DNA of 44,892 nt from assembly GCA_023251435.1 (NCBI GenBank), contig JAHEYU010000050.1:1-44892 (forward strand), read 5' to 3'. The first letter of the stretch is position 1, and each line of letters opens with the position of its first letter. The stretch is from Bacteroidota bacterium (GTDB lineage: Bacteria; Bacteroidota; Bacteroidia; Bacteroidales; Prolixibacteraceae). Positions 7,238 to 44,892 of this stretch are shown here, piece after piece. The position numbers and the translations under genes are program-made. Under the pieces are notes generated by a model. That model saw only the letters and a program-made list of their open reading frames with translations, searched no databases and was not told where the DNA came from.

Positions 7238-8317
7238 TTACTTTATCATCTTCCTGATAACCGGATATAGATTTTCTGACATTCGTATAAAGCCCAAATC
7301 GGTTAAATGAACGCCATCAACTGTTGCTTCAAAGTCATTTCCAATCAGCTTTTCGCCCTTCATGTAATACATGTGCCTGTCGTTCTTTTTATGATCCGTA
7401 TAGATTTTTTTCAGAACTTCATTTTTCTCCCTAAGCAACGCGAATACGGTCTGATCAAAATACATGTGTGGAAAAAGTATCGTTTCGACCAATAGAATTG
7501 GTACATCAGGTCTTTTTTTGCGGATTATCTCCAAAAAGCGAACGTATTTCTCATTCATTTGAGCTACGGTAACATTGGGCAAACAGTCCATTACAAAACA
7601 GGAGGCGTCAATGTCGGCCATCACTTCTGCTATTTCCAGATCGAGCTGTCCGTTTCCGCTAAACCCGAGGTTGACAATCTGCCTGTCGAGCATTCGCGAC
7701 AACTGGTTCGGGTAAGCCATTCCGGCCCGTGAAGCACAACCTCCCTGGGTGATGCTGGTTCCATAGAATACCACGGGTTTCGCTTTACGCGGTGAATCAA
7801 TCGTCGAATTGCCAATGGTCGCTGTTGATTTTACCCCAATTTCAAGGCTGGCCAACCCATCGTAAAGTGGCAAATACAGCATGTATTCCATATCGTTTCC
7901 TGGCATGTGGTTAATAATTGTTGTAGTTGTTGTTTTTCCTGAAGGACGGGCAGAATTAACAAATTGCCATTTTCCGTTTTTCAGGCAATACAAATCCAGA
8001 CCCTTAATTCCTGTAGGAGCAAAGTGATTCATAACCACATCGCCTGTAACTTCCCATTTTGCTGCAATGATCGTTGAATTGGTGCGAAACCGAATGGCCA
8101 GTCCGCTGCAATTTTTCGACAATGACCATACCGGCGGACGGGTTTTCCCGTTCAGGCTTGCCGGCAAGCGGTCATATATGTTTTCGGTATCAGTAAATCC
8201 TTTTCCTATCAACTCAAAATTTGTTGCGTTGATATACTTCAGGCTGTCTGCATTTGAGGTCCATCCGGTTTTGGGTAATAACAGTGTCAAAATCAAGGCT
8301 AATAGGAAAAGTCTCAT
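7238..8317 (-). CDS. Secreted SGNH/GDSL-family esterase (GxDLY N-terminal domain)
   Basis: This 359-residue protein has a Sec signal peptide (about residues 1-20). A jelly-roll-like N-terminal domain contains the GLDLY signature near residue 107. The SGNH hydrolase domain starts near 180. Block I is FYGTSITQGG with nucleophile Ser188, block II is GFSGNGQLDLE, the block III region is DCLPNV, and block V is DGVHLTDLGF with the Asp/His pair. The pattern fits the Lipase_GDSL_3 group found in many polysaccharide loci, where members remove O-acetyl or other acyl groups from glycans. It is the last gene of the minus-strand train that begins at susC A, 25 bp after the transporter gene. The acyl substrate is unknown. 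Confidence 0.85.
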   Translation of the reverse strand: MRLFLLALILTLLLPKTGWTSNADSLKYINATNFELIGKGFTDTENIYDRLPASLNGKTRPPVWSLSKNCSGLAIRFRTNSTIIAAKWEVTGDVVMNHFAPTGIKGLDLYCLKNGKWQFVNSARPSGKTTTTTIINHMPGNDMEYMLYLPLYDGLASLEIGVKSTATIGNSTIDSPRKAKPVVFYGTSITQGGCASRAGMAYPNQLSRMLDRQIVNLGFSGNGQLDLEIAEVMADIDASCFVMDCLPNVTVAQMNEKYVRFLEIIRKKRPDVPILLVETILFPHMYFDQTVFALLREKNEVLKKIYTDHKKNDRHMYYMKGEKLIGNDFEATVDGVHLTDLGFIRMSENLYPVIRKMIK

Positions 8318-8342
8318 GGTTGGAATGGTAATGAAACAAATT

Positions 8343-9758
8343 TTATTTTTTCAGCCACATGCGTTCAATGTCTTCGAGCGATTTGCCGGTAGTTTCAGGA
8401 ACAAGTTTCCAGGTGATGTACATGTAAGGGATACACATCACACCGAACAGCCAGAAAACGCCGGCAGGTGAAAGAGTCGTCATTAACCATGGTGTTAACT
8501 GACCAATCAGAAAAGTTCCGATCCATAGTGAAAAACCGGCAGCCGACATAGCCAATCCACGCACTCTGGCCGGATACATTTCGGATAAAAGCACCCAAAT
8601 CACGACACAGATGGAGATGGCACAACTGAAAATATAAAACAGGATCAGGATCAGTAAGGTAATTGGAGGAATCACATTCGAAACTTTATTCATGGTAAAA
8701 TAAATTCCGATCAGAAACAATGATACCATCATGCCTGAAACGCCGTAATATACAAGCTTTTTACGTCCAATCTTATCAATTACAACCATGGCAAGCACGG
8801 TTGACCCAAAGTTCACCAAGCCGACAATAACCTGATAAAATAACGAATCTCCTTCTGAAAGACCGGTTTGCTGAAAGATGGATGGTCCGTAATAAAGAAC
8901 GGCATTCACTCCCATAAACTGACCAAGAATAGCCAGACTGACACCAATAAAAAGTGCGACTCGAAACCCGGGCTGAAACAATATCTTCCAGTCAGATTTT
9001 TCTTCAGAACGAACTGTATTTTTTAAATCGGCAACCTGCTCGTCAGCTTTTACGGAACCGTAAATTCGTTTTAGTGTTTTCAGTGCAACCGTTTCTTTCG
9101 ACTTCAGCACCAACCATCTCGGGCTTTCAGGAATAAAAAACAAAATACCGAAAAACAGCATGGCCGGAAGCGCTTCGGCTCCAAGCATACCGCGCCACGT
9201 TTCGGTTACCATGAATTTACCCCACAATCCACCTGTTGTCCCTAATTCACGCATATGAACAGCATATTCGCTAATAGCATAATTAACCAGATATGCTCCC
9301 ATAAAACCAACGGTTATGGCTAACTGGTAAAGAGAAACCAAGGTTCCACGGTAGCGCGAAATGGAAATTTCGGATATGTAAAGTGGCGATATTACTGAAG
9401 CAACACCAATTCCGACGCCTCCTATGATTCGATATATCACCAGATCAGAAATACTTCCTGAAAGCATACAACCGATTCCGGAGCTGGTAAAAAGCACGGC
9501 TGAAAACAGAAGTACCGGTTTTCTTCCAAACAGGTCGCTTAGTTTTCCGGCAACAGCTACTCCCAGAATAGAACCAACCAATGCACAACCTACATACCAG
9601 CCAGTACTCACATCATCTAAACCGAACTGAGTGGCTACACTACCTATCGTTCCGGAGATTACTGCAGTATCATAGCCAAACAGAAATCCCCCAATTGCGG
9701 CAACAGCTGCAAGGAAGATCACATACAGCATGTTTTCCTTATTTTCGTTATGGATCAT
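8343..9758 (-). CDS. MFS sugar:H+ symporter of the sugar porter (XylE-like) family
   Basis: This 471-residue inner-membrane protein has about 12 hydrophobic segments. Sugar-porter hallmarks are GYDTAVISGTIG in TM1, GKLSDLFGRKPVL in loop 2-3, PESPRWLV before the central loop, DKIGRKKLVYYG in loop 8-9 and PETTGKSLEDIERMW at the C-terminus. Family members (XylE, GalP and relatives) import monosaccharides with protons. The gene lies 8 bp upstream-to-downstream of the DUF4434 gene end, inside locus A, so it probably imports a sugar released by the locus. The exact sugar cannot be read from these motifs. Confidence 0.92.
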   Translation of the reverse strand: MIHNENKENMLYVIFLAAVAAIGGFLFGYDTAVISGTIGSVATQFGLDDVSTGWYVGCALVGSILGVAVAGKLSDLFGRKPVLLFSAVLFTSSGIGCMLSGSISDLVIYRIIGGVGIGVASVISPLYISEISISRYRGTLVSLYQLAITVGFMGAYLVNYAISEYAVHMRELGTTGGLWGKFMVTETWRGMLGAEALPAMLFFGILFFIPESPRWLVLKSKETVALKTLKRIYGSVKADEQVADLKNTVRSEEKSDWKILFQPGFRVALFIGVSLAILGQFMGVNAVLYYGPSIFQQTGLSEGDSLFYQVIVGLVNFGSTVLAMVVIDKIGRKKLVYYGVSGMMVSLFLIGIYFTMNKVSNVIPPITLLILILFYIFSCAISICVVIWVLLSEMYPARVRGLAMSAAGFSLWIGTFLIGQLTPWLMTTLSPAGVFWLFGVMCIPYMYITWKLVPETTGKSLEDIERMWLKK

Positions 9759-9766
9759 GAAATGAG

Positions 9767-10864
9767 TTATTTGATGTTAAAATATTCTTTGTAACGGTTG
9801 TATAAATGGCCTGCCTGAAGATAGGACGATTGCGGACTCATAAAATGTGAAAACTCGAAGGTGATGCCTTTATCGTATCCGGCGCGGGCGGCAGCTTCCA
9901 GTTTCATGCGGAGTTTATCGAACTTAATGGGCAAAAATTTGATGGGCATATCGCGATCGATCGTTTCGGCATTCGTCCAACATTTCATGCCGTATTTATC
10001 GGCCATTTTTTTGTTTACCCCGAAGAAAGCGTCCAGCTCGTCATAGTCAATGTGTCCGTCCTGAAAAGCAACCGCATCAACCACGTCATGAATGCCTTCG
10101 AATATTTCACTCCATTCGCGTTCGTGTTCCTGAACCGATACGGCATTCTCTTTCGACAGGGCGCTTCCTGCCGCCTGAACCGCTTTTTTACCGTCGATCC
10201 ATGGCGAAATAAAGGTTGGCAAACCATCCGATATATCTTTGCATTGTTTTCCCATAGTGTGAAATGCGCCAATAGCTCCCTTAGTTTGACGGCTGATTTC
10301 GCCGCTGATGTACCATCCCTGGAAACTCTTGTATTTGGTGCCGTATTTCTGCCAAACCTCGTCGATCACGTACTTGTTGTCTTCGATCTCCCAGCTTAAA
10401 TCGCCCGTGTCCCAATATTTTCCGGAGTCGTACAATCCGAAGTAAAATTTCATGCCGTGTTTTTCGGCAAGGCGGCAATACATATCCACCAAATCGACCG
10501 ATGGCATGTAGCAATTGTGCGCTTTCATCAGGTATTCTGATGGATAAGTGATGAACTTGCGGTATCCCGAACGGATCATGATCACGGTGTCGATTCCTAT
10601 GGCTTTCATGTGGACAAAATCTTTGTCCCATTCTTTTTCGCCCCAGTTTTGGTGCGGAATATCATGCGATATTTCATCGAGGAAAGTGCCTGTTATTTTT
10701 AGTCCCTGAGCCTTGGGAACAATCAGCTTACTTTGAATTCCTGAAGCCGGAAGTACAATTTCTGATTCTCCCGCCATTGAGACCAGCGGAAGAGTCATGG
10801 CAGCCATTCCTGTCATGGAAGCTTTTTTGAAAAAATCGCGTCGTGAATTTTGATCGTTTGACAT
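9767..10864 (-). CDS. Tat-exported DUF4434-family TIM-barrel protein (putative glycoside hydrolase)
   Basis: This 365-residue protein starts with a twin-arginine leader (SRRDFFKKAS, then a hydrophobic stretch), so it is likely exported folded. The mature protein matches the DUF4434 pattern: GTFLDEISHDIPHQNW near residue 60, GWYISGEISRQT near 185, WTNAETIDRD and TFEFSHFMSP toward the end. The Glu residues in GWYISGEIS and NAETID sit where acid/base and nucleophile residues usually sit in clan-A-like barrels; that assignment is inference. It lies between a phosphoesterase gene and a sugar porter gene in locus A. A second, more distant DUF4434-like protein is encoded at 30121-31197. No substrate is known to me for this family. 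Confidence 0.8.
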   Translation of the reverse strand: MSNDQNSRRDFFKKASMTGMAAMTLPLVSMAGESEIVLPASGIQSKLIVPKAQGLKITGTFLDEISHDIPHQNWGEKEWDKDFVHMKAIGIDTVIMIRSGYRKFITYPSEYLMKAHNCYMPSVDLVDMYCRLAEKHGMKFYFGLYDSGKYWDTGDLSWEIEDNKYVIDEVWQKYGTKYKSFQGWYISGEISRQTKGAIGAFHTMGKQCKDISDGLPTFISPWIDGKKAVQAAGSALSKENAVSVQEHEREWSEIFEGIHDVVDAVAFQDGHIDYDELDAFFGVNKKMADKYGMKCWTNAETIDRDMPIKFLPIKFDKLRMKLEAAARAGYDKGITFEFSHFMSPQSSYLQAGHLYNRYKEYFNIK

Positions 10865-10904: not shown

Positions 10905-12350
10905 CTACAAATCGAAACGGTATTTGTTACCGAACCGATCGATGGCTTCTACTGAAATTCGTGCTGTCGCAGATGTCTGTCTGGCCCTGAACATGTGGCT
11001 GTTTTTCCGGGCAACTATCCATTTATACGCCAGCTTTTCTTTGTCAGAAAAAGACTTTACTGTTTCAGGGTCGAGTCCTGAATAGACTTCCATTTCTCCA
11101 ATTCGCTGTTCGTTTTCGTACCAGTAAACTTTCCATTGCGGATCCCAGTTCCACACGTTGGCGGTAATGTATTCAGGCTGTTCCGGATTTGCACCGGCAG
11201 GATATGCCCGCAACTGATGATCCTTCGTTTTGCCGATACTTTTGAAATACCATGAAATCTGATCTCCGTCGGCTTCAAAAACTGCATAGCCTTTTGGAGT
11301 GCCATCTTCGGCATAAGGCCCTTGCCACCAGGCTCCGCTAACCGACGAAATGATATGTTCATAAATGGTAGGTGAAATCAGAATATTGCGGGTATAATGC
11401 AAATGGCCCGAAATCAAATGGGCATTGTACGGTTTCAGAATTTCATAAAGTGCCTTTTTATTGGTCATCGATCCCGAAATGTTGGCATACTTGAATGTTT
11501 CAATATCGCTTTCGTCGAGCGCCGAAGGTATATGAAACGTAACGACTACCGTAGAACCTACTGGAACATACGAAAGATCTTTTTCAAGCCAGGCGAGTTG
11601 TTTTTCAGGCAGATAACCAATGTAGAAATAATCACGTCCAATGTAAAAAACATCGTTTAGCACGATGTAGTGAATTTTCCCTTTGTTGAAGGAATAATAG
11701 GCCGGGCCAAAATGTTTCTCGAAAACAACAGGAGCTGTTTCGTTTGACCGGCCATAATATTTCATGTCGTGGTTGCCCATAGACTGATAAAAAGGGATTC
11801 CGGTTTTCGACAAAATAAGTTTGGTACTATCAAACAGCGACGGATTATCTCCCACAATATCGCCACAACCAATTGCATGAAAAGGAATTGACTTATTTGA
11901 CTTTAGCAGATCGCTCAAATCAGCCACGGCATCTCTATAAAGTGGAAGCTCCTCGTTGGCTTTGATCTGCGGATCGGCCCATGCGATAAATCCATGTTTG
12001 TTTTCGTCGGTGCTGTTCTTCTCCAGTTGAAAGTTAAATTTCCCGGAACGGTTACCCGAACTCAGATTTTTATAGAATTGCGGCACCGAATTTTCAACCG
12101 GAACTGTATATCCGGCAGGACTTGAGATATATACAAATGCTGATGACGGATCAACTTTCAGCGAATAATTTCCATTGCGGTCGGTTTTGCAAAAGTTGAC
12201 TCCATCAGTAACCAGAACACCAGCCATCCCCTTTCCTTCGCAGGAAACAGTTCCTTTGCAGATCGTTTGTTCAACGATGGGTTCAATAGAAAAACCATTA
12301 CTGAAACTGAATAAAATCAGGAATAGAAGGATGTACCGAGTCATGAGCAT
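10905..12350 (-). CDS. Secreted calcineurin-like metallophosphoesterase with MetallophosN and MetallophosC domains
   Basis: This 481-residue protein has a signal peptide (about residues 1-20). A transthyretin-like N-terminal domain spans about 30-110 (GKGMAGVLVTDGVNFCKTD, then GNYSL). The binuclear metallophosphoesterase core follows: WADPQI, GCGDIVGDN, SMGNHDMKYY, VVTFHIPS and SGHLHYTRN supply the metal ligands. A C-terminal beta domain contains PQWKVYWYENEQ. The three-domain order fits the MetallophosN-Metallophos-MetallophosC group. In this locus it may release phosphate or a phosphodiester-linked substituent from a glycan; that is inference. It is encoded 11 bp after the upstream GHL10 gene. 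Confidence 0.85.
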   Translation of the reverse strand: MLMTRYILLFLILFSFSNGFSIEPIVEQTICKGTVSCEGKGMAGVLVTDGVNFCKTDRNGNYSLKVDPSSAFVYISSPAGYTVPVENSVPQFYKNLSSGNRSGKFNFQLEKNSTDENKHGFIAWADPQIKANEELPLYRDAVADLSDLLKSNKSIPFHAIGCGDIVGDNPSLFDSTKLILSKTGIPFYQSMGNHDMKYYGRSNETAPVVFEKHFGPAYYSFNKGKIHYIVLNDVFYIGRDYFYIGYLPEKQLAWLEKDLSYVPVGSTVVVTFHIPSALDESDIETFKYANISGSMTNKKALYEILKPYNAHLISGHLHYTRNILISPTIYEHIISSVSGAWWQGPYAEDGTPKGYAVFEADGDQISWYFKSIGKTKDHQLRAYPAGANPEQPEYITANVWNWDPQWKVYWYENEQRIGEMEVYSGLDPETVKSFSDKEKLAYKWIVARKNSHMFRARQTSATARISVEAIDRFGNKYRFDL

Positions 12351-12361: not shown

Positions 12362-13702
12362 TTATTTGCGGTCAAATGTAGTACTGTCTTCGGCCATTTT
12401 AAAACCATCTTCCACTTCTTTCCACATGTTTTTACGAATGATATGAACAATGTCGAACACCATCAACCCATCGGAAGCCTGGATATTCATGGCAATAGTG
12501 CGCGACAATTGCGGACGATTATCATAAAACTGATCAACCAAAATACCACCCATAAATTTACGTCCGTTTAATATTCCCCTGATTTTGGCGCACGAGCCTT
12601 CAACACAATACCAAGTCCCTGTAGATCCTTTACTGTCGGTTTCATTTATTACTATGTTGTTTGCTTTCAGGTATTCCTCCATGGTAACGTTTGTATAATA
12701 ATTACCGGTTGTATACAAATCGAGCAGTTCGGCATAACCAAAGTTTTTGTACTCAGGAGTGGCCCATTCGTAATCCTTTGACGGATCGTACTGGTTACTG
12801 GCCCAGTTTACCCCCACTTCGAAATATGACGGATACCAGGCCCCGGTATAAGTTCCGAAAGAAATATTGGGATTAACTGACTTTACCGACTGACGCGCCA
12901 AAGACATAAAATCGTAGATGTTTTTGGCTCTCCATTCTATCCATTTGTTGAAATATTTTCCTGGAACGTAATCCGCTTTACCGTTGGCGTCTTTCTTCCA
13001 TTCGTAAATATCAACAGGGAAATTCTGGATTTTTTCGCCCAGGTATTCTTCAAATTTTGTTTTTGAAAGTTCTGAGAAATCCGCCATAATGCCATCGTAG
13101 CGAACCCGATCGAGCATAAAACCATCGAGTTTTGGATATTTAGCCGTTACCTCTTTCAGTACATTCAGGATATGGGTCTGAAAATCAGGATTGATCGGAT
13201 TGATCATGGCTGAATATTTTTTCTTTTGAGTCATAATAGATACAATACCTTCATCAGGAGTATAAACCATACTCGCCCATTCTGGATTGGTGGTGTATGT
13301 TTGTCCGCGATCGAAGAAATTATGTCCGCCAACAAAGACATTTAACGATGCATGCACCTTCAATCCGAGTTCGTGTGCTTTGGTAATAAAATGTCCAAGG
13401 TAATCGAAGTCGGATCTCTCGAATTTGTCCCATTCTTTCATCTGCGGGGCAAATTCACTTTTATAAAGCACCTCTCCGGTAATGGGACGAATATCAACGA
13501 CTGCATCGGTAAAGCCAATTGCTTTAATCTTCTCAAGGTAAAAATCGATGGAATCGGGATAGCTGAAACGTTCAAAGTTGGCTTCAGCATCGAACCACAT
13601 TAATTTTGGCTTTATAGTTTCTGCGGGTTTCTTCGCGCTCTGGGTACATGCTGAAACCAGAACGATCGTTAAAATCAGCATATAAATAATTGGATTTCTC
13701 AT
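12362..13702 (-). CDS. GHL10/DUF187-family glycosyl-hydrolase-like lipoprotein, copy 2
   Basis: This 446-residue protein begins with a lipoprotein signal (lipobox LVSAC, Cys near residue 19). The TIM-barrel part shows the GHL10/DUF187 pattern: GFTDAVVDIRPITGEVLYKS near 65, KAHELGLKVHASLNVF, LDGFMLDRVRYDGIMADF near 195, and ASNQYDPSKDYEWATPEYKN near 290. The acidic residues of LDRVRYD are the best active-site candidates. The E. coli family member DigH (formerly YddW) cleaves denuded peptidoglycan glycan strands, so an N-acetylhexosamine-containing substrate is plausible. It is clearly a paralogue of the next upstream gene (13748-15127), sharing the NYGYA and FEEYLG motifs. Confidence 0.82.
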   Translation of the reverse strand: MRNPIIYMLILTIVLVSACTQSAKKPAETIKPKLMWFDAEANFERFSYPDSIDFYLEKIKAIGFTDAVVDIRPITGEVLYKSEFAPQMKEWDKFERSDFDYLGHFITKAHELGLKVHASLNVFVGGHNFFDRGQTYTTNPEWASMVYTPDEGIVSIMTQKKKYSAMINPINPDFQTHILNVLKEVTAKYPKLDGFMLDRVRYDGIMADFSELSKTKFEEYLGEKIQNFPVDIYEWKKDANGKADYVPGKYFNKWIEWRAKNIYDFMSLARQSVKSVNPNISFGTYTGAWYPSYFEVGVNWASNQYDPSKDYEWATPEYKNFGYAELLDLYTTGNYYTNVTMEEYLKANNIVINETDSKGSTGTWYCVEGSCAKIRGILNGRKFMGGILVDQFYDNRPQLSRTIAMNIQASDGLMVFDIVHIIRKNMWKEVEDGFKMAEDSTTFDRK

Positions 13703-13747: not shown

Positions 13748-15127
13748 TTATTTCGAGATTAATGCATTGTCAATACCTTTTTTTACATACTCCCATTGAT
13801 TCTTTTTCTTTAGATGAATCATGTCAAATAGAAAATAGCCGTCGCATGCATTAATGGCAGCATCAACAGATTGTGTTATCGCCTGATTAATTACAGCATC
13901 GCTGCTTGTGGCCCAATCTCCGTTTCCAACATCTGGTCCTCCAATTACTTTGGCATCACCCTTAATCTTATCTACAGCCCTGGCACAAAATCCCTGGACT
14001 GTCCATTCGGTCGTTCCGTATATCCGGGTTGGCCCGGCATAAGCGCCAATCAGGATAACATCCATGTGATCGGCATAACCGTAGTTTTGATATTTTACAG
14101 TAGCCCAGGCCGGATAGGCTGAAGCTGTATTGAATTTGGGACTTGCCCAGTTGACACCCACTCCGTAATATGATCCGTACCAGCCTCCAACATAGACTCC
14201 AAATTGGATGTCTTTATTAGTAGCTTTTACACGGGTACGGGCTTTTTCCATAAAGTCATGAATGGTTTTTACCCTGAATTCGAGCCATTGTTTGAAATAG
14301 GGCGGCAAGCTTGCTGGAAGGCTGCCTGCAGTTGTTCCTGCAGTCATGACATCATTCGGAAAGTTAGGGATTGAATAGCCCAGGTATTCTTCGAATTTCT
14401 TTTTGGTATAAGGCGAAAAGTCGCTGTCCAGATCATCAAAGCGGCAACGATCGAGGATAATCCCATCCAGATTTTTGTAAGCGGCCAGATCTTCGAGCAT
14501 ATCGATCAAATAGTTCTGAACGTTTTCGTTTACCGGGTTGAAAAATTTAGCTCCGGAACCTCCTTTATCCAGGGTATTAACAATTCCTGATGTTGTTAAT
14601 AGCTGAGTCGCCCATTCCCGTTTGGCGGCATCTCTAAACAAAACCCCATCAGAGCCCAGGCTGGTTGTATTTCCACCGACCATGGTGTTGACACCGGCAT
14701 GGATTTTTAGACCCAGACTATGACCTGCATCAATAAAGGCCTGAAGATAATCCCAGGAGGCTGTACGTTCAATTTTAGTATATCCCGAAGGTAACCATGC
14801 ACCAAACCATTTCGCCTGATCGACCACATCTGTTTTGAACAATACATCACCGGTAGTTCCCCGCACATCAATCACTACATCGGTGAAACCGGCATTTTTT
14901 GCCAAAGTCAGATCACGAAGAATATTTTCTTTATTATTAGCAAAATCAGGGAAATTGGCTGCGGCATCTACCCAAATAAACCTGGGTTTTTCGCTATTGC
15001 TTACTGTATCATCGTCCCATTCCCATTCCGGATTATCATCATTTTTCCCGCCGCATGAAGCTAACACGGAAATTGATGACAACCCAATCAACAGAAGATA
15101 TATAAATTGACTGAGTTTTTTTCGCAT
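13748..15127 (-). CDS. GHL10/DUF187-family glycosyl-hydrolase-like lipoprotein, copy 1
   Basis: This 459-residue lipoprotein has lipobox VLASC and an acidic Asp/Glu-rich stretch right after the Cys (DDNPEWEWDDD), common in outer-membrane or surface-exposed Bacteroidota lipoproteins. Barrel motifs are FTDVVIDVRGTTGDVLFKTD, GLKIHAGVNTMVGGN, LDGIILDRCRFDDLDSDF and FGVYVGGWYGSYYGVGVNWA. The family is GHL10, as for its paralogue at 12362-13702, 45 bp downstream. It is the first gene after the hairpin that follows the susCD-DUF5018 genes. The LDRxR(F/Y)D motif is conserved in both copies, which argues that both are active. The substrate is unknown. Confidence 0.82.
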   Translation of the reverse strand: MRKKLSQFIYLLLIGLSSISVLASCGGKNDDNPEWEWDDDTVSNSEKPRFIWVDAAANFPDFANNKENILRDLTLAKNAGFTDVVIDVRGTTGDVLFKTDVVDQAKWFGAWLPSGYTKIERTASWDYLQAFIDAGHSLGLKIHAGVNTMVGGNTTSLGSDGVLFRDAAKREWATQLLTTSGIVNTLDKGGSGAKFFNPVNENVQNYLIDMLEDLAAYKNLDGIILDRCRFDDLDSDFSPYTKKKFEEYLGYSIPNFPNDVMTAGTTAGSLPASLPPYFKQWLEFRVKTIHDFMEKARTRVKATNKDIQFGVYVGGWYGSYYGVGVNWASPKFNTASAYPAWATVKYQNYGYADHMDVILIGAYAGPTRIYGTTEWTVQGFCARAVDKIKGDAKVIGGPDVGNGDWATSSDAVINQAITQSVDAAINACDGYFLFDMIHLKKKNQWEYVKKGIDNALISK

Positions 15128-15199: not shown

Positions 15200-16876
15200 C
15201 TACATGTCGATACAGTCGAACTGATAACCGACCACATAACCATTGGTAAACATGAAATAGAGATATAAATAATACCCATCTTTTGAAACCCTTAGAGTAA
15301 CATCGCCTGTGCCATTGGCGTTAACAACTACGGGGGTAACTCCCTTGGCGCCATATTTATCTCTTTCGCATTCCCAAACAACCGATTTGCATGTTTTGGT
15401 TTCCAGATTGCCGGTAAAATTGTTGTCGTTGCTTACATCCATCAACCATACACCATCGGCAGCACCCCAGGAGAAGCTGTTCACCCAGTTGGTTGTCACA
15501 TATTTTGCATTGTTGAATTCCATGTAGTCAACAGCATTCATAATGTAATTTGCGCTGATCACATCCAGACTCTTGCGTACAGTGTTGGTTAAACCATTCA
15601 CCCAGGCAAATGTATTGTCTGAATAAGCGGCTACAAAATAATCGCTGGTCAGATTCGTTCCCGAGGTATAAACAACATCAGCATTAGTTGTCCAGCCTTT
15701 TGCCAGGCCGCTCATTGTGATAATTTCCGGAATTTGTGAGGTCAATACCCCATTGACTACGGTCCAGCGTGCAATTTTTTGTCCGGCAGCCAGTATAGGA
15801 GCAGTAATAATTGCGTTTGTCTTAATACTTCCATTGATTGAAAACTTACGTCCAACAGCCATTGTTCCATTCCATTCAATCATAAGTTCAGGAGTGGAGG
15901 TTACCGAAGTCAGCTTGTAAATTTTAAATGGACCGGCGTTGGGAGCCAGGTTACTGATAAAAATATTTCCATCATCATCAGACGTGCTGTAGAAATTCGT
16001 AAGATTACCTTTCAAAGCACCCAGATCGATTTCACCTACTTTTTCTCCCGTTTTGGCATTCAGATAAATACTGTTTGCATTCCTCGTATTTAAAATGACA
16101 TAATCGTCTGTAACGGCAATACCTCCTGTTAAATTATCCGCAGTTATTCCGCAATCGGCCTTCAACTGTTTTGCAAACAGCAATTTAGCGCTTCCTGAAC
16201 GAATACCGTATGACAGTTTTGAAGGTACTTGTTTTTTAATGGTATAAATATTCTTCGTTATTCCATCATGAGCAGTAACAGTCAATTTGATTTCGGTGTT
16301 GTAATCCAGTGCCTGTTTTGAAGGATCTGGTGAAATTGTTGCATGATTTGACAAGGTGACTTCGGCCAGTGCAGGCGTCATATTTCCGATTGCAATCAAT
16401 GAGATTGTTTTTGTTGTTTCATTGACAACACCGCTCATACCGAGAGATGGTATTTTAAAATCAGTTAACAGACATTCATTACTTTTACGAATTACTCCCT
16501 TTACTTTATACTGTTTTTTCACTTTTAACTGATCCGTCAGGGTAATTAAATTCTCCTTAGTCAAATCAAGATATAAAAGAGAAGGACTAACCGTAACATT
16601 ATCATCAAGATTTGCACTTACACGCATTTTTGTCAATTGCGTTTCAGTAACCTGATTATTGCTGCTTTCTGGAAAATAGTAGGGAACCGGAATAACTATC
16701 TCATCACTCCCGGGTTTAATAAAACCCTGAAAATTTCCTGTTCCATCGGCAAAGGTTGCAGTAATACTATTAATACCGTCTCTCGAAACTGATGGCAATA
16801 ATTCGTCGGGTTTATGGCAGCTGCTCAATAAGGTAAAAAAGACCAGCACAATCGCTATAAATATATTATTTTTCAT
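15200..16876 (-). CDS. DUF5018-type surface lipoprotein, probable glycan-binding protein
   Basis: This 558-residue protein has a lipoprotein signal (LLSSC, Cys near residue 20). The N-terminal half follows the DUF5018 pattern: INSITATFADGTGNFQGF near residue 36, IVIPVPYYFPESS near 66, and KNIYTIKKQVPSKLSYGIRS near 210. The C-terminal half (about 225-558) is rich in short beta strands and aromatic/Asp turns (ISNLAPNAGPFKIYKL, GVWLMDVSNDNNF) and is probably a beta-propeller. It follows susD by 13 bp, the usual position of a surface glycan-binding protein, and should help hold the polymer at the outer membrane. The ligand is unknown. Confidence 0.8.
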   Translation of the reverse strand: MKNNIFIAIVLVFFTLLSSCHKPDELLPSVSRDGINSITATFADGTGNFQGFIKPGSDEIVIPVPYYFPESSNNQVTETQLTKMRVSANLDDNVTVSPSLLYLDLTKENLITLTDQLKVKKQYKVKGVIRKSNECLLTDFKIPSLGMSGVVNETTKTISLIAIGNMTPALAEVTLSNHATISPDPSKQALDYNTEIKLTVTAHDGITKNIYTIKKQVPSKLSYGIRSGSAKLLFAKQLKADCGITADNLTGGIAVTDDYVILNTRNANSIYLNAKTGEKVGEIDLGALKGNLTNFYSTSDDDGNIFISNLAPNAGPFKIYKLTSVTSTPELMIEWNGTMAVGRKFSINGSIKTNAIITAPILAAGQKIARWTVVNGVLTSQIPEIITMSGLAKGWTTNADVVYTSGTNLTSDYFVAAYSDNTFAWVNGLTNTVRKSLDVISANYIMNAVDYMEFNNAKYVTTNWVNSFSWGAADGVWLMDVSNDNNFTGNLETKTCKSVVWECERDKYGAKGVTPVVVNANGTGDVTLRVSKDGYYLYLYFMFTNGYVVGYQFDCIDM

Positions 16877-31255: not shown

Positions 31256-32050
31256 TCAATGTTTTTTGATGGTCGAAGAAGAAAAATCGATCACCTTCGA
31301 TGCACTTTCTTTATCCAAAAATAAAATAGCGTTAGGATGTTTCCGTAGTATCGTTGAAGGGTATCGGGCACCGATAGGTTCAGTGAGTGTGTGCAGTACA
31401 GCCTGAGATTTATTGATACCGGGAACGATACAGAATACATGCAATGGACGGAAAAGTGTTGGGATAGTGAGTGTCAAAGCATGAGTCGGAACTTGATCAA
31501 TTGACTCGAAACAACCATCGTTCACTTGTTGCTGGCGGCATTGTTGATCAAGATCAACAACTTTAACTATTTTAGGGTCATTAAAATCGGCCACATGCGG
31601 ATCGTTAAAAGCAAGATGAGTGTTTTCGCCAATTCCCATACATACCATATCCGGAATGAATGTATTCAACAAATCAGCATATCTTTTGCACTCCTGATTT
31701 ATATCTGTTGCATTTCCATTCAGGTAATATATTGATTTAAAAGGCACTTTGCCGAAGATACTTCGGTACAGAAAATTACCAAATCCTTGAGGTGCATCTG
31801 CCGGTAAACCAACATATTCGTCCATGTGAAAGGCAATAATCCGATTCCATTCGATATTGGGTTGGAGTGTTAAAGCCTGAAGAAACTCATTTTGAGATGG
31901 AGCTGCCGCAAAAATTATGCTGATAGTATCGCGGATTTCGAGCAAATTACGGATGCATTTGGCAGTATGTCGAGCTGCGTCGTTTCCCATGGCTGTCCGG
32001 GTTTCGTAAACATAAGTCGAAAGCTGTTCGGTTTTAAATTTATCGATCAT
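31256..32050 (-). CDS. Glucosamine-6-phosphate deaminase/isomerase family protein (divergent NagB-like)
   Basis: This 264-residue cytoplasmic protein has the NagB/6-phosphogluconolactonase fold. It keeps HMDEY with Asp77 (equivalent to E. coli NagB Asp72) and His145. The catalytic block reads GENTHLAFNDP where E. coli NagB has GNDGHIAFNEP, so Asp141 is Asn143 here and Glu148 is Asp150. The N-terminal phosphate loop is AAAPSQNEF instead of a GGTP loop. Related sequences exist as a NagB-like subgroup usually annotated as glucosamine-6-phosphate deaminase. Next to nagA the expected role is GlcN-6-P (or another hexosamine-6-P) to ketose-6-P plus ammonia, but a different amino sugar phosphate is possible. 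It is encoded 18 bp after a DUF4855 gene. Confidence 0.8.
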   Translation of the reverse strand: MIDKFKTEQLSTYVYETRTAMGNDAARHTAKCIRNLLEIRDTISIIFAAAPSQNEFLQALTLQPNIEWNRIIAFHMDEYVGLPADAPQGFGNFLYRSIFGKVPFKSIYYLNGNATDINQECKRYADLLNTFIPDMVCMGIGENTHLAFNDPHVADFNDPKIVKVVDLDQQCRQQQVNDGCFESIDQVPTHALTLTIPTLFRPLHVFCIVPGINKSQAVLHTLTEPIGARYPSTILRKHPNAILFLDKESASKVIDFSSSTIKKH

Positions 32051-35695: not shown

Positions 35696-36676
35696 TTATA
35701 CCGGAAGAACATCTTCCCATTGTTCGTTAGCAGCTGACTTTTCAAGTGCTTCGAGAATGGCAATTTCGTTCAGAATGCTCTGATGACCTCTGGGTTCTAC
35801 CCGCGTCCGGAACATTTCAACGATATCAACATACATTTTGCCTGGTTCGCTTTCAGGAACGCGCGATTTAAGTTCGGCTAATCCTTTTTTAGTTTCAATA
35901 AAAGTTTCCCAGCCGTACGACTGATTTTTGAAAATCAATGTCGCAAACAAGCCACTTTTAAAGACCAAACTTGCACTTCCTTTTTTCCCACTTCTTGTGA
36001 TTTTTACTCGTTGAATGTCATCCCCAAACATGACCATGAGAGGCTGCAGAAGATGAACTCCGTAGAAAAATACACCTCCGTATTCCGAATCCATATCCAA
36101 AGGGCCATAACGAATCACATGGTTTATTTCGCCCAACGATGCGATTTGTTCTTTGATGTCGTAAGTTGCATCGCTTTGTGCAATGGAGCTGAATGAGGTT
36201 ATTGGAGTGCCGAATTTGCGAGCCATTGCCAGAAATTTTTTGCCCTCTTCAACCCGATAGCAGAATGGTTTATCGATAAAAGTCGGAATTCCAGCTTTTA
36301 CAAAAGGAGTTGCCGCTTCAAGGTGGTATTTGGCATGGCGATGATCGACAATCAATGCATCAATCTTGCCAAGCATTTCTTTCGGATCTTTAACAATGGT
36401 TGGTATCTTCCCAGCCTCTGCAGCTTTGCGGGCAAATTCATCGGTCTCGCCCCAAAGGTGAGTAATCTCAACTCCAGGGAATTTTTTGTCGATGTTAAAC
36501 ATCTTACCAAAACCAACAGTGTGCGAATTTTCTGCACCAATAATTCCAATGCGGATGGGTTTTAGTTTGTCATCGGAAGTCCCCAATACCGGCGCAAAAG
36601 AGGAAGCCGAAAAGGCAACTGTAGTCAGTGCTGCTCCTGCTCCCAGTGTTTTTATAAATGATCTCCTTGATTTCAT
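35696..36676 (-). CDS. Tat-exported Gfo/Idh/MocA-family oxidoreductase, short form
   Basis: This 326-residue protein has a twin-arginine leader (SRRSFIKTLG, then an Ala-rich hydrophobic stretch to about residue 30). The NAD(P)-binding region follows (IRIGIIGAENSHTVGFG near 42). The EKP-type motif appears as FIDKPFCYRVEEG near 140, with Lys in the family's conserved position, and then the alpha/beta C-terminal domain (FFYGVHLLQPLMVMFG). Tat export of an NAD(P)-dependent enzyme means the folded protein carries its cofactor out. It may oxidise sugars in the periplasm, or act by transient oxidation as GH109-like enzymes do. It is encoded 10 bp after its longer homologue. Confidence 0.85.
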   Translation of the reverse strand: MKSRRSFIKTLGAGAALTTVAFSASSFAPVLGTSDDKLKPIRIGIIGAENSHTVGFGKMFNIDKKFPGVEITHLWGETDEFARKAAEAGKIPTIVKDPKEMLGKIDALIVDHRHAKYHLEAATPFVKAGIPTFIDKPFCYRVEEGKKFLAMARKFGTPITSFSSIAQSDATYDIKEQIASLGEINHVIRYGPLDMDSEYGGVFFYGVHLLQPLMVMFGDDIQRVKITRSGKKGSASLVFKSGLFATLIFKNQSYGWETFIETKKGLAELKSRVPESEPGKMYVDIVEMFRTRVEPRGHQSILNEIAILEALEKSAANEQWEDVLPV

Positions 36677-40405: not shown

Positions 40406-41488
40406 TTATTTTGGGAGCTTCATTTTTTTTCGTTCGATAATAATTTTGGCAAGGCGATCTAATAATTCTTTATCCAAAGGATTTTTTGATCGTGCCATTT
40501 GGTAAATAGCTGAACCTCCCTGATAATAGGCGATCGATGCATTTTTGAAAACATCATGGTCTTCAAAGGCGTTGATGTAGCTAATCAATCGGTCGCGCTT
40601 GCTGTCTTTGGCATCTGCCAGCGCAGTTTCATCAAATTCCATTTCGAGTCCCATATTGGTTCCTTTAGCAAAAGCACATACCGCATCGAGACGTTCGTAA
40701 CTGATTGATTTGTTGAAAAAGTGATTGGGCTGAATGTAAGCAAAATCGAATTTGTCGGTTTTCCAATTGTCGAAGCCAACAGCTTTCCAATAGGGAATCC
40801 AAAATAAACGAAGATTTTTTGAACGAATATAATCGCCTATCTGTGGAAGAATATCGGTGTATGGTCCATCGCTTTCAGGAACCCAATAAAAACCTTCGAG
40901 ATCGAGGTGCTGATAGTTTTCTTTTTTATATCGTTCCAGAAAACGGTCGATATACCATTTGCAGGCTTCGATACAATCTTCATTTTTCGAAAAATCCAGC
41001 ATTCGATCTATACTTCCCCAGTCTTTCTGTCCTTTGATTGGAGCGGGGATACCAACAACAAGTTTATGGCGAAACGATGGGTTTTTCATTTCTTTGATTT
41101 GCTGATCGATGCATTGATCGAGAGCCGAAAACGCTTTGTCTTTTTCGAACTGACGCTCCATGAGCCATTCCCATTCTTCGCGGCGTGCAGCTTCTTTTTC
41201 ATAGCCTGGGGCATAACAGCGACCTTTGCCATCTTTAAATTCCAAAAACAAAAATCCATCAAATAACCAATTTTTCTTTCCCTCTTGGTTTTGATGAACC
41301 ACGTAAGGCGCAAACTGGTCTTTGTTCCAATCCATGTTGCGGTGTGTACCTCCCTGATAAATCAGTACAAGATCGGCGATATTTGTTTTTGCGTAATTGG
41401 GTTTGGTGTTTTTGCCCATGCCCCAAGCGGATAGATTTCCAATTAGTAACAACAGTATTATAATTGTATTTTTAAGTATATGTTTCAT
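40406..41488 (-). CDS. Secreted DUF4855-family protein (putative glycan-active TIM barrel), copy 1
   Basis: The ATG at 41488 gives a 360-residue protein with a good Sec signal peptide (KNTIIILLLLIGNLSAWG); the ATG at 41575 would add 29 polar residues before it and is less likely. Motifs of DUF4855 are LDLEGFYWVPESDGPYTD, LRLFWIPYWKAVGFDNWK, KFDFAYIQPNHFF and NMGLEMEFDETAL. The Glu of GFYWVPESD and of LEMEFD are candidate catalytic residues. Its paralogue is at 32069-33085, but this one is not a lipoprotein. It opens the gene train after the terminator of the second susCD unit. Confidence 0.75.
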   Translation of the reverse strand: MKHILKNTIIILLLLIGNLSAWGMGKNTKPNYAKTNIADLVLIYQGGTHRNMDWNKDQFAPYVVHQNQEGKKNWLFDGFLFLEFKDGKGRCYAPGYEKEAARREEWEWLMERQFEKDKAFSALDQCIDQQIKEMKNPSFRHKLVVGIPAPIKGQKDWGSIDRMLDFSKNEDCIEACKWYIDRFLERYKKENYQHLDLEGFYWVPESDGPYTDILPQIGDYIRSKNLRLFWIPYWKAVGFDNWKTDKFDFAYIQPNHFFNKSISYERLDAVCAFAKGTNMGLEMEFDETALADAKDSKRDRLISYINAFEDHDVFKNASIAYYQGGSAIYQMARSKNPLDKELLDRLAKIIIERKKMKLPK

Positions 41489-41708
41489 TCGTGTAAATTT
41501 GTTTTCAGTTGCTGAATGGAATTCGCATGATTGCAAAATATTCAACTGATTCGTATTTCTATGAATCATGCTCATTTCATGATTGTTGGTTCTGTAAAGA
41601 TTTAATTAAGCTGACATTTTGGGTTATTTGATGTTAAGGTTTATAGGTTCAACCCAATTTGTTGAATAATCGCCATACACCTTATAAGAAAGCAAGGGCA
41701 TTCTGTTG

Positions 41709-41762: not shown

Positions 41763-41787
41763 AATATTCATCGATGAAAAGAATCGT

Positions 41788-42636
41788 TTACAACCAGAAT
41801 TTTAATTCTACAGATGCATCCATCTGCTTTCCTGCAGAAGTGTATGTATAATATAGCATAAATGTGCCTGTATTACATTGATACACTTTGCTAAATTCAC
41901 CTGCATACGTACTGGTTTTTCCTGCAGTGTTACTCACTGCAAAAGATTCCGATCCGGTTGCTCCAGTGATTTGAACCTGTCCGTTATTGACGGTAAGTAA
42001 TAAATTCAAACCACTAACAATACCCTTTACCTGAATTGTACCTGTATTTACAGATGAACTAGTAATTACTTCATCAACTCTAAGTTTGTCTGTATCTGGA
42101 GTACCAGAAAGTACAGCCTGCCCGTAGGCTTTATATTTGGCTTCAAAAACATTTCGAAATCTCGGGAATTGAAGGATTGCTACTTTTTTTGCATCTAGTA
42201 TCTTGACTCCATTGTCTGAATTTTTGATACTAATTGGTAAGAAATACTTCTTGTTTGTAAATGTTTCATCTATTCCTTTCAGTTTGATCCGATAAAAACC
42301 CCTTTCTTCGTGGGTTCCGATTGATACAGATTGTTCAGGCAGCGTATAATAATTTGATGGCAATAATTCGTATCCAGCATTTTTTACCATAAATTCACTA
42401 CCTGCAGGTTCATCAATTCCAAGGGTTACCAGGACTGTTGCATTATTTTGATTAATTCCAGATTTTATGATACCCAACTCAAATTCAGAGTCGCCTAATA
42501 AAACTGTTTGTTCCGATGATCCCGATTGGGCTAAATATACAATACTGTCAGCAGAAATGGTGTCCAGTCCACTTTCGCAGGAGACTATCCAGAAAGCTGA
42601 CAATAAAATCATACATATAGAATTGAATTTTTTCAT
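41788..42636 (-). CDS. DUF1735-type surface lipoprotein, probable glycan-binding protein
   Basis: This 282-residue protein has lipobox IVSC (Cys20). The N-terminal domain (about 30-150) follows DUF1735: YELLPSNYYTLPEQSVSIGT and TNKKYFLPISIKN. The C-terminal part (about 160-282) is an all-beta domain of the kind that follows DUF1735 in susD-linked lipoproteins (IQVKGIVSGLNLLLTVNNGQ, MDASVELKFWL). It is the third gene of the second susC-susD unit, 30 bp after susD, in the usual surface glycan-binding-protein slot. It differs in family from the DUF5018 lipoprotein of locus A, so the two units probably bind different glycans or different parts of one. Confidence 0.8.
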   Translation of the reverse strand: MKKFNSICMILLSAFWIVSCESGLDTISADSIVYLAQSGSSEQTVLLGDSEFELGIIKSGINQNNATVLVTLGIDEPAGSEFMVKNAGYELLPSNYYTLPEQSVSIGTHEERGFYRIKLKGIDETFTNKKYFLPISIKNSDNGVKILDAKKVAILQFPRFRNVFEAKYKAYGQAVLSGTPDTDKLRVDEVITSSSVNTGTIQVKGIVSGLNLLLTVNNGQVQITGATGSESFAVSNTAGKTSTYAGEFSKVYQCNTGTFMLYYTYTSAGKQMDASVELKFWL

Positions 42637-42666: not shown

Positions 42667-44637
42667 CTACCACCATGGATTTTGAACCAATGATGTGCCT
42701 TTTTCGATTTCAGTTTGAGGAATCGGGAACAGGTACATTTTCTTTTCAAATACACGGGTTTCGAAAGCTGTACGTTTGTAGAAACCGGTGAATGCAAAAC
42801 TGTTTGTTGTTATAACTCCAGCGTTAATATCCATACCCCACATACGTCCACCTTCTCCAAATTTACGATCTGTATCTCCACTTGTATCCGGATTATCAGC
42901 TAACCATCTTCTGCGTGTAGTGAAATAACGGTCAGTTTCAAAGCACAGTTCAATCTGGCGCTCTCTCAGGATTAGTTCCCTTTGTTGGTCTTTGTTTCCT
43001 TTAATCTCAGGATAGACATCAAATATTCCGGGAATACCTGCACGTTCGCGAATCATATTCCAATATTTAGCAATGTCTGCATTTCCCGGATCATATTCGT
43101 TTAACGACTCAATGTAGTTGAGTAGAACTTTAGCGTGACGGATAAATATTTCGCATTGAGGTGCAGAATATACACGATCTCTCATATTTGCCTGTGGATC
43201 AACGCCTTTTAGCGCCAGGTAGCCTGTACGGGGGAAGAATGTATATGAACCAGAAGATCTGGAAATGCCACCATAATACAATTCAACACGTGCGTAACCA
43301 TCCTGTTGTTTTACTGTAGTATTACTTGTTGAATAATAATTTCGTTTAACAACGTCATCGGGTAATTGTGGAATAATACGTTTATTGTAGAGAATACTTG
43401 CATAAAAACGAGGTTCCCGGTTGGCGTACATACTCCAATCTCCAGCCCAGTGGCCCCATGCATCGCCGCTGCGTATGTCTGCAATCATTTTAATACGATC
43501 GGTAGTAACGTTCAGATTTTTTGGATTCCAAAATTCTCCGCCTGTTGTAGTAAAACCTGATTCAACATAACCTGACTGAGAGTCTTCAATTGTGCGTCCG
43601 TTTTTCATATAGAAAGCATCGACAATGCGTTGAGTTGGTCCGACACCACCCAGATTGTTTGGACCTGGGGAAGCATGTACAGCCCAGCCATTCTGACCAG
43701 CAAGAGCATTTGATCTTGCGAAAATGACTTCACAATTCCAGTTTTTAAGAATTACATCACGAACTGATTTGTAGGGATTGAATACTGTTCCATCGCCGTT
43801 TTCATTATTTTTATAGAGTCTTACACCCGCGGAGGCAGCTGAATTAATTACATCCAATGAAGCTGCAGCTGCTTTTTTCCATTTATTCTCGTCGTAAGTG
43901 GTATTGGCAAGTAATGTTCCATTCTGATTTTTGAAGGAGGCATAATCTTTATTGCCATTCCATTGTGGACTGGCAGCCGTTGTAAGCACTTCCGATTTAA
44001 TAGCTTTGCAAGCAAGTTTAGTAGGTTTGCCTAACCACACTTTATTATCTGTCCATGTTAATGGCAAACCTGTTTCAGCCTGATCCATCATTTCGATGAT
44101 GTAGCTGACACATTCATCAAATGGTGCCCGTGAATAGGCATTCCAGTCTTCATCTATCTTAGTCGATTCTTTGATCAGTACTGCCGGACCATATTGACGC
44201 AGAATAAGCCAGTAATAATAACCCCGAAGAAATTTAACCTCTGCTTTGTATTGAAATTTCAAATCATCACTAATTTCCGGGCACTTATCCACATTGTTTT
44301 CAAAAATAAATGAGGCGCGAATAGCCCTGTAGTAACTGCTCCATTTGTTATAGAATCCGGTTGATGGATTCCAGTTTCCCAGATTTATGTTGTAGGTAGG
44401 ATAGACGTTCCATGTGAGGTCAATTTCATCGGAACAACCCAACCAGGGATCATTTTGCTGCAAACTGGCAGCAGGAATCTGTGAATAGATATTGTAAAGG
44501 TATTTTTCGGTTTCGACTCTTGATTTCCAGATCATTTCGTCTGTTTTCATGTCATCAGGCTCTTTCTCAAGGTAGTCGCATCCACCCAATATCAATACAA
44601 GCACAAAAAGGCTGATATATAGTAGTTTATTATTCAT
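42667..44637 (-). CDS. SusD/RagB-family nutrient-binding lipoprotein (second unit)
   Basis: This 656-residue protein has lipobox ILGGC (Cys20), then DYLEKEPDD, the common start of SusD proteins. Motifs are EVKFLRGYYYWLILRQYGPA near 135, LACKAIKSEVLTTAASPQWN near 215, HAKVLLNYIESLNEYDPG near 495, RERAGIPGIFD, LILRERQIELCFETDRYF and MYLFPIPQTEIEKG. It is longer than locus A SusD (545), with extra loops in the middle. It pairs with the SusC encoded 12 bp upstream and binds oligosaccharides at the cell surface. Confidence 0.94.
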   Translation of the reverse strand: MNNKLLYISLFVLVLILGGCDYLEKEPDDMKTDEMIWKSRVETEKYLYNIYSQIPAASLQQNDPWLGCSDEIDLTWNVYPTYNINLGNWNPSTGFYNKWSSYYRAIRASFIFENNVDKCPEISDDLKFQYKAEVKFLRGYYYWLILRQYGPAVLIKESTKIDEDWNAYSRAPFDECVSYIIEMMDQAETGLPLTWTDNKVWLGKPTKLACKAIKSEVLTTAASPQWNGNKDYASFKNQNGTLLANTTYDENKWKKAAAASLDVINSAASAGVRLYKNNENGDGTVFNPYKSVRDVILKNWNCEVIFARSNALAGQNGWAVHASPGPNNLGGVGPTQRIVDAFYMKNGRTIEDSQSGYVESGFTTTGGEFWNPKNLNVTTDRIKMIADIRSGDAWGHWAGDWSMYANREPRFYASILYNKRIIPQLPDDVVKRNYYSTSNTTVKQQDGYARVELYYGGISRSSGSYTFFPRTGYLALKGVDPQANMRDRVYSAPQCEIFIRHAKVLLNYIESLNEYDPGNADIAKYWNMIRERAGIPGIFDVYPEIKGNKDQQRELILRERQIELCFETDRYFTTRRRWLADNPDTSGDTDRKFGEGGRMWGMDINAGVITTNSFAFTGFYKRTAFETRVFEKKMYLFPIPQTEIEKGTSLVQNPWW

Positions 44638-44649
44638 GATCTTATATGT

Positions 44650-44892
44650 TTAAAAGTTTGCTCTGATTCCAAAGTTCATTTTGCGTTGAAGCGGATATTT
44701 TCCACCATCGTTATCTCCTGTTTCAGGATCCCACATTTTCCAACTGGAGAATAATGCAGCATTGTTGACATGCAAATAGATCCGAAGTCCTTTCAGATGA
44801 ATTTTTTCAAGCATGTTTTTATTTAAATTCTTACCCAGTTCAACATCGGCCAGTCGCAAAAAACTTCCATCGTAAATGTTTTTTGTTGAACG
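44650..44892 (-). CDS. SusC/RagA-family TonB-dependent transporter, C-terminal 80 residues only
   Basis: The gene runs out of the window at 44892, so only its 3' end is visible. The frame is open to the edge and reads STKNIYDGSFLRLADVELG, the standard end region of SusC barrels, then GLRIYLHVNNAALFSSWKM and the closing beta strand MNFGIRANF. The SusD gene follows after 12 bp. This is the first gene (in transcription order) of the second unit seen here. Confidence 0.9.
   Translation of the reverse strand, partial: RSTKNIYDGSFLRLADVELGKNLNKNMLEKIHLKGLRIYLHVNNAALFSSWKMWDPETGDNDGGKYPLQRKMNFGIRANF

Follow-up and report, generated by a model that had tools for sequence, protein, structure and literature searches.

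What does a polysaccharide utilisation locus (PUL) act on when its amino-sugar genes stand among barrel families such as DUF4855, DUF4434 and GHL10, and do its two runs of genes belong together? These questions are raised by the window studied here, the entire 44,892-bp contig (G000:C5) of a Prolixibacteraceae genome. From position 7238 onward every gene is on the minus strand, and the genes form two runs: the right run extends from a truncated susC (44634-44892) down to the gene of a 319-amino-acid (aa) lipoprotein (26824), the left run from the gene of an FAD protein (24904) down to that of a GDSL esterase (7238), and a ROK regulator gene (25137-26360) sits between them. Neighbouring susC and susD genes, carbohydrate enzymes and a regulator are what defines a PUL, and all are present; the contig terminates within the second susC, so that only about 80 C-terminal residues of it remain. 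With a probability of roughly 0.55, we read the locus as a PUL of two operons separated by the ROK regulator gene, broadly of the type of BT0433-BT0454 in Bacteroides thetaiotaomicron, serving the use of a heteropolymer that contains N-acetylhexosamine (N-acetylglucosamine, GlcNAc, and/or N-acetylmannosamine, ManNAc) and probably uronic acid, ester and phosphate groups.

The gene arrangement exceeds chance. Across 140 Prolixibacteraceae genomes, GHL10-DUF4985 proteins of the left half occur in 19 and the long form of DUF4855 from the right half in 15, with both in 12 (Fisher 2.7e-10, or 1.6e-9 without the window's own genome), and in 7 of these 12 the two lie within 30 kb of each other on one contig. 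The 748-aa protein of the right half is found at full length in 12 genomes, 7 of which also have DUF4855 (p=2e-5; 1e-4 without the own genome), the two genes being at most 13 kb apart in 5 of the 7. The sets behind these counts were compiled by hand at E<=1e-60 for GHL10, E<=1e-70 for DUF4855 and at least 43% identity over the full length for the 748-aa protein, leaving out rows under these thresholds (for instance DUF4855 in G077 and a partial 748-aa protein in G087); the GHL10 set mixes close orthologues with relatives of 34-56% identity, neither the Fisher nor the binomial values take common descent into account, and the rate used for the binomial values was only roughly guessed. Some places were fetched twice under two labels (L014/L016, L012/L017, L107/L020, L130/L023 and L151/L090).

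Individual loci show the halves side by side. Two genomes (G031, G136) have a single run of DUF4855, SusCD (40-43%), a DUF5018-like gene, GHL10 and DUF4434, and in a third (G086) the left-half locus is abutted by a DUF4855 locus. Markers of both halves are consecutive in an uncultured Bacteroides (L042) and in Proteiniphilum UBA4977 (L081), the sequence there being SusD2 (63%), three DUF4855 genes, SusD1 (57%), DUF5018 (49%) and GHL10b (58%); in Sphingobacterium humi the row runs NagP-like, AGE, ROK, SusC, SusD2 (66%) and DUF4855. These rows, the 12 shared genomes and the merged runs argue against an explanation that we hold possible if doubtful, namely that the halves are separate neighbours: the left for an N-acetylhexosamine glycan, the right (DUF4855, the 748-aa protein, DUF4434b and CE15) for an acidic plant or algal polysaccharide, with nag genes from an inserted cassette.

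A number of observations weigh against a single locus, and those on close orthologues, G008, G024, CE15 and the nag cassette also speak for separate loci. Only two genomes, the own one and G086 (80%), have a close orthologue of GHL10a at most 30 kb from DUF4855, and the GHL10 protein of the other five close pairs is just 43-56% identical to GHL10a; this caveat lowers our confidence in the single PUL, and in the phosphodiester-linked glycan considered below, and raises it for the separate loci. Co-occurrence of the 748-aa protein with GHL10-DUF4985 is weak (5/12, p=0.01, or 0.04 without the own genome). The same-genus genome G008 has DUF4855 beside a GH106 and two GH28 genes (L014:82-7885), so that pectin-type genes there occupy the place of the window's right half; an 88% relative of the window ROK lies 7 kb downstream of this DUF4855, an 81% piece of the FAD protein is on the same contig, and a second genome (G018, L017) matches the order, by length and identity only. 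The 27-kb contig of G024 holds the right-half core with no nag gene and one gene of the GH10 family. Within the window, the right half carries a CE15-like domain, and CE15 is associated with uronic esters of the plant cell wall. Only 11 of 77 named DUF4855 loci have AGE (9), NagA (2) or NagP (2), in a set retained from 145 candidates, counted by hand and with many loci incomplete. Further, the nag genes move as a separate cassette and so may reflect the cassette more than the barrels; among the 13 such loci read, DUF4855 is in view only in Sunxiuqinia elliptica (L150/L151), about 13 kb away. Finally, the NagB-like protein falls below the NagB cut-off, and searches of the own genome for GH89 and NAGPA found neither.

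For the single PUL, the amino-sugar signal rests on AGE and NagA, which pass their equivalog cut-offs; the NagB-like protein, which reads GIGENTHLAFNDP, reaches 130.5 bits against the 236.9 of TIGR00502, and the NagP-like permease 351.8 against the 625 of NF046060. AGE genes number 75 in 62 of the 140 genomes and lie at most 15 kb from GHL10-DUF4985 in 16 of its 19 genomes, which supports an N-acetylhexosamine substrate. Relatives of the sugar porter (59-62%) are close to AGE or DUF4855 in other genomes, and an Alistipes metagenome-assembled genome (L060) has DUF4855 with NagA (58%), NagP (59%) and Gfo (56%). Relatives of the left half additionally hold DUF5009, an SSF symporter and CE2-type esterases (ten proteins scanned). 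DUF5009 presumably belongs with NagX. Published excerpts describe NagX (PF07786) as a likely transmembrane acetyltransferase in glucosamine use.

The phosphodiester glycosidase NAGPA is encoded within 8 kb of GHL10-DUF4985 in 5 genomes, of 43 that have it. Such neighbours, together with the window's calcineurin-like gene, an AGE that would handle ManNAc and the peptidoglycan-cutting GHL10 of Cwp19 (below), are what one would expect if the target were a bacterial cell-surface glycan of capsule or teichoic type with phosphodiester-linked GlcNAc or ManNAc. We find this quite unlikely: the 5 genomes are a minority of the 19 with GHL10-DUF4985, the own genome has no NAGPA, and sequence cannot tell the specificity of a phosphodiesterase. 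The calcineurin-like protein itself contains the motifs GDIVGDN, GNHD and GHLH. Two NAGPA genes in relatives of the locus (L120:16415-17425 and L130:10400-11623) could indicate phosphodiester-linked GlcNAc.

If the single-PUL reading holds, the steps would be as follows, with the substrate, their order and all enzyme activities predicted from gene content, homology, co-occurrence, and the confident DUF4855 fold with its invariant glutamates. The SusCD pairs and the DUF5018, BT_3987-like and 319-aa lipoproteins would bind and import fragments of a chain cut by the lipoprotein or periplasmic glycoside hydrolase (GH)-like barrels (two GHL10, two DUF4434 and two DUF4855) and the 748-aa protein. 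Both esterases, CE15-like and GDSL, would remove side groups together with the calcineurin-like enzyme, and freed N-acetylhexosamine would be taken up via the NagP-like and sugar-porter permeases. AGE would interconvert ManNAc and GlcNAc; the route into glycolysis would run through NagA and the NagB-like enzyme, and a GlcNAc kinase would have to be encoded elsewhere. An additional, oxidative step on glycosides probably comes from the FAD protein and both Gfo/Idh proteins.

Among the barrels, the long form of DUF4855 is modelled as an eight-strand beta/alpha (TIM) barrel with a predicted local distance difference test (pLDDT) score of 90.8. Invariant glutamates sit at strands 4 and 7 (E234 after strand 224-231; E311 and E313 in strand 309-313) in 61 of 61 aligned sequences, that is, the window protein and 60 of 82 usable homologues, and the short form (32069-33085) retains E166, E281 and E283 in the alignment. 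The model is closest to BT_0435, clan GH-A enzymes and GHL10; assignment to a single family was discarded, since the VIA rows hold many TIM barrels whose Z values differ by only 1-2. DUF4855 looks like an ordinary clan GH-A-like barrel with putative glycosidase activity. For GHL10, a phmmer search of the PDB with GHL10b, the only query used, gave no match. Full-length relatives of GHL10a reach 76-80% identity in 6 genomes of the family and 70-71% in 2 others, and fragments at 84-88% occur in G008. DogH is reportedly a GHL10 protein, by the title of a paper. The GHL10 domain of Cwp19 from Clostridioides difficile is described in published excerpts as a lytic transglycosylase that cuts peptidoglycan; both GHL10-DUF4985 proteins share its Pfam family but differ in having the DUF4985 partner domain, in being lipoproteins and in sitting in a PUL. 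Among the papers listed by literature searches, none concerned an activity of DUF4434, DUF4855 or DUF4985.

The 748-aa protein matches no Pfam or NCBIfam model, and its structure prediction, made from 3 sequences, has a pLDDT of 39, on which we claim no fold. PDB searches with the protein and with a 13-sequence profile found nothing; an 18-sequence profile of the family matches 8x1b, 9ayu and 9awt weakly (E=6e-4, 53 positions), chains that we take to be GH36. A search of viral contigs for the protein gave 4 pattern stretches, none of them confirmed. Its called start (27780-30026) is TTG, and an ATG six codons downstream, which opens a clean signal peptide, is the likelier start.

The N-terminal domain of the 783-aa protein matches PDB 8trx, titled "CE15 glucuronoyl esterase", at E=8.5e-28 over residues 89-359; 24 PDB sequences are matched in all, 13 of them named glucuronoyl-esterase or CE15, and the best-ranked row is 7nn3 (9e-30), with the title Beta-xylanase. 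Homology to solved structures over the catalytic domain would place it in CE15, with ester hydrolysis predicted. The CE15 motif is GCSRxGK, and the window protein differs in having GHSRNGK at residue 269. A second alpha/beta-hydrolase domain after the CE15-like one also sets it apart from the CE15 glucuronoyl esterases; this domain has GNTLG in place of the usual GxSxG and may be inactive or atypical.

The freshest element here is the pairing of two exported Gfo/Idh oxidoreductases with NagA and a NagB-like protein, as a cassette that recurs elsewhere, sometimes near genes of presumed 3-keto-glycoside hydrolases. At E<=1e-60, 126 of the 140 genomes contain a match to the 448-aa Gfo protein. 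Of the well over 100 matches, we read the loci of 13 that lie outside the window (L138-L150), namely the 12 best and G152:C9. A second Gfo gene adjoins the 448-aa relative in 12 of the 13 (with just 25-28% identity to the window's in L146 and L150), a NagA-like gene is present in 9 and a NagB-like gene in 7; the contig ends close by in 4 of the loci, and in L140 and L149 NagA is in view without a NagB-like gene. Most of the NagA-like proteins share 28-30% identity with that of the window, the one in L139 81%, yet both of those tested exceed the NagA cut-off; the one NagB-like protein tested is under the NagB cut-off. The transporter is Nramp-like or of the major facilitator superfamily (MFS) in the two cases tested. 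DUF1080-like genes, called with a home-made profile from 6 seeds, flank 4 of the 13 loci (L138, L140, L146 and L148). The cassette and DUF4855 occur together in the window, in S. elliptica and in the Alistipes genome L060. Among the papers listed by literature searches, none was about a Gfo-NagA-NagB cassette, as judged by title.

Gfo-type proteins act on amino sugars during sialic acid scavenging, and the cassette suggests an oxidative step. A likeness to the 3-keto-glycoside pathway of BT2157/BT_2158 lies in Gfo/Idh/MocA proteins with twin-arginine translocation (TAT) signals and in 448-aa relatives that adjoin DUF1080-like genes (L138, L152); BT2157, a DUF1080 protein, is a 3-ketotrehalose hydrolase according to published excerpts. 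The 448-aa protein differs in scoring 146 bits against the 750 required for the BT_2158 family (glycoside 3-dehydrogenase, NF058561), and scans of the window gave no DUF1080 domain. For GH109, the match to 2ixa (alpha-N-acetylgalactosaminidase) is weak (E=1e-6, residues 41-201 only, 17th of 55 rows), and we do not adopt that assignment. Elsewhere in the own genome, a 52% paralogue (L152:3600-6600, G000:C95) lies between two DUF1080 genes beside a susCD pair, a candidate 3-keto-glycoside locus. It seems unlikely to us that the right half couples hydrolysis with C3-keto oxidation of N-acetylhexosaminides by an exported Gfo/Idh dehydrogenase, a partner eliminating or hydrolysing and the second Gfo, NagA and the NagB-like protein processing the product, in a dedicated oxidative amino-sugar pathway with the DUF4855, DUF4434 and GHL10 barrels. 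Were that true, these barrels would found new GH families, and the cassette is in any event a concrete case for asking if bacteria cleave amino-sugar glycosides oxidatively.

Pfam and NCBIfam scans found every gene class that the sequence-only reading of this DNA had named, among them three exported oxidoreductases (one PF12831 FAD protein, with a lipoprotein-like N terminus judged by eye only, and two Gfo/Idh/MocA proteins) and genes for ester and phosphate processing. Its proposed N-acetylhexosamine substrate gains from the AGE and NagA results, and the conserved co-occurrence of the halves on which it staked its case was found, with the caveat on distant GHL10 proteins. Other claims needed trimming: both susCD pairs are there, the second with only the susC tail; AGE and NagA keep their names more firmly than NagB and NagP; and both esterases are present, one beginning with the CE15-like domain. 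It had seen no well-studied GH family, and the Pfam scan of the window proteins indeed gave no GH family besides GHL-type models, yet CE15 is a recognised esterase family. CE15 is also the one family in the window of the kind, a known CAZyme with another substrate, that it had said would count against it, although G008 adds GH106 and GH28 beside DUF4855. The description of the 748-aa protein as a barrel goes further than its structure prediction allows. The features are collected below.

Features of the window, with strand and the evidence for each assignment
Feature	Position	Strand	Evidence
GxDLY/Lipase_GDSL_3 SGNH esterase, signal-peptide-like N terminus	7238..8317	-	Pfam PF14606 203 bits, PF14607 164 bits
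Sugar porter (Sugar_tr MFS)	8343..9758	-	PF00083 365 bits; TIGR00879 above cut-off
DUF4434 barrel (a), BT_0435-like	9767..10864	-	Pfam 282 bits; PDB 4h41 E=1.1e-191
Calcineurin-like phosphoesterase	10905..12350	-	PF16371/PF16370
GHL10 + DUF4985 lipoprotein (a)	12362..13702	-	Pfam
GHL10 + DUF4985 lipoprotein (b)	13748..15127	-	Pfam; adjoins (a) in relatives
DUF5018 lipoprotein	15200..16876	-	PF16410 424 bits
SusD-like (1)	16890..18527	-	PF07980 188 bits
SusC-like (1)	18548..21679	-	Plug, CarbopepD_reg_2
N-acyl-D-glucosamine 2-epimerase (AGE)	21773..22930	-	NCBIfam NF052547 671.8 bits, above equivalog cut-off of 600
FAD-dependent oxidoreductase, probably exported	22976..24904	-	PF12831 310 bits
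ROK transcription regulator	25137..26360	-	PF00480 177 bits + HTH_24
319-aa lipoprotein, no Pfam match	26824..27783	-	64% relative in G024 directly after 748-aa relative
748-aa exported protein with weak GH36-like signal, no Pfam model for its family	27780..30026	-	profile comparison
DUF4434 barrel (b)	30121..31197	-	PF14488 184 bits
NagB-like (Glucosamine_iso)	31256..32050	-	PF01182 49 bits
DUF4855-like barrel, short form, lipoprotein	32069..33085	-	PF16147 26.8 bits vs gathering score 27
NagA	33091..34275	-	TIGR00221 271.4 bits, above cut-off of 225.65
NagP-like MFS permease	34295..35647	-	TIGR01272 (gluP subfamily) above cut-off
Gfo/Idh/MocA oxidoreductase, 326 aa, TAT-like N terminus	35696..36676	-	PF01408 44 bits; Pfam TAT_signal under its cut-off
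Exported Gfo/Idh/MocA oxidoreductase, 448 aa	36687..38033	-	NCBIfam TAT signal above cut-off; PDB 8tdf E=1e-28
CE15-like glucuronoyl esterase domain + second alpha/beta-hydrolase domain, 783 aa	38040..40391	-	PF22244 (GCE_fung) 164 bits
DUF4855 barrel, long form	40406..41575	-	PF16147 314 bits; model pLDDT 90.8
BT_3987-like N-domain lipoprotein	41788..42636	-	PF08522 51 bits
SusD-like (2)	42667..44637	-	PF07980 150 bits; 81% relative in G024
SusC-like (2), C-terminal tail	44634..44892	-	resembles end of G024 SusC

Two intergenic repeats stand out. A 26-bp AT-rich palindrome (24934-24959) in the gap that separates the left operon from the ROK gene is a possible operator; as a ROK operator candidate it has no counterpart in L014 at <=3 mismatches, and its degenerate matches in the window (5 against 1.2 expected) include two that are one site on both strands, and it is not used as evidence here. 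By eye, an AT-rich stretch ahead of DUF5009 in L014 loosely resembles it. A perfect 14-bp inverted repeat (41722-41763), between the BT_3987-like and DUF4855 genes, is perhaps an attenuator or terminator within the right operon.

The closest known system is the BT0433-BT0454 region of B. thetaiotaomicron, which we compare through passages of published papers (those drawn on here and elsewhere in this text are from PMC3878776, PMC5238430, PMC6989115, PMC10434189, PMC8225759, PMC6016235, PMC7531118, PMC9007349 and PMC5583593) and one PDB match rather than through the B. thetaiotaomicron sequence; that match is of DUF4434a to 4h41 (E=1.1e-191), whose title names BT_0435. In these passages BT0433 is the ROK regulator "NanR", predicted for sialic acid and GlcNAc, BT0438-BT0440 are an alpha-N-acetylglucosaminidase (BT0438, GH89) and susCD, BT0442 is DUF4855, BT0446-BT0449 are DUF5009, GHL10-type, calcineurin-like and again GHL10-type ("family 10"), and BT0451-BT0454 comprise susD, susC and a sugar porter; one paper names BT0451-BT0461 as a characterised N-glycan PUL.

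From this region comes the least probable of the explanations considered here, that the target is host-type sialylated N- or O-glycans and AGE epimerises ManNAc derived from sialic acid. The NanR prediction and the N-glycan PUL would both fit, as would two further published statements, that the BT_0439 SusC was detected in supernatants on galacto- and milk oligosaccharides and that NanE-II, an epimerase of the AGE type, is a hallmark of the sialic acid pathway in Bacteroidetes; one left-half relative has an SSF symporter. Against it, the Pfam scan of the window shows no sialidase or sialate lyase family; the S. elliptica relative, the sole one scanned for DHDPS, has a DHDPS-family gene.

Returning to the single PUL for an N-acetylhexosamine heteropolymer, the window and BT0433-BT0454 have in common ROK, DUF4434, two susCD pairs, DUF4855, a GHL10 pair, a calcineurin-like gene and a sugar porter. 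They differ in GH89 (BT0438) and DUF5009 (BT0446), which only B. thetaiotaomicron has, GH89 being found neither in the window nor in the own genome when both were searched, and in the NagA, NagB-like, NagP-like, two Gfo, CE15-like and 748-aa proteins that the window has beyond the compared set. The uncultured Bacteroides locus L042 combines AGE, GH89, SusCD, DUF4855, a CE2-type esterase, DUF5009, GHL10a (72%) and a calcineurin-like gene (44%). Because of the BT_0435 match, the published gene list and the L042 gene set, we assign the window to this locus type, as a member with rearranged gene order.

The sequence-only reading, which had considered both polymer and cleavage chemistry new, is thus partly supported. 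The locus type resembles a known one, and new chemistry becomes less likely with a clan GH-A-like DUF4855, the Cwp19 activity for GHL10 and the CE15-like domain. Joint recurrence in Bacteroidota, gut Bacteroides included, is seen for DUF4855, DUF4434 and GHL10-DUF4985 and less often for the 748-aa family; among culturable bacteria, S. elliptica and Maribellus sp. YY47 have DUF4855/DUF4434b loci. One solved member would aid substrate assignment for several families and for the gut locus. The locus is real and recurrent, its use of an N-acetylhexosamine heteropolymer is plausible, and its value lies in the prospect of new sugar-cutting enzymes: as a system it is a variant of the BT0433-BT0454 type, known but unsolved, and not categorically new.

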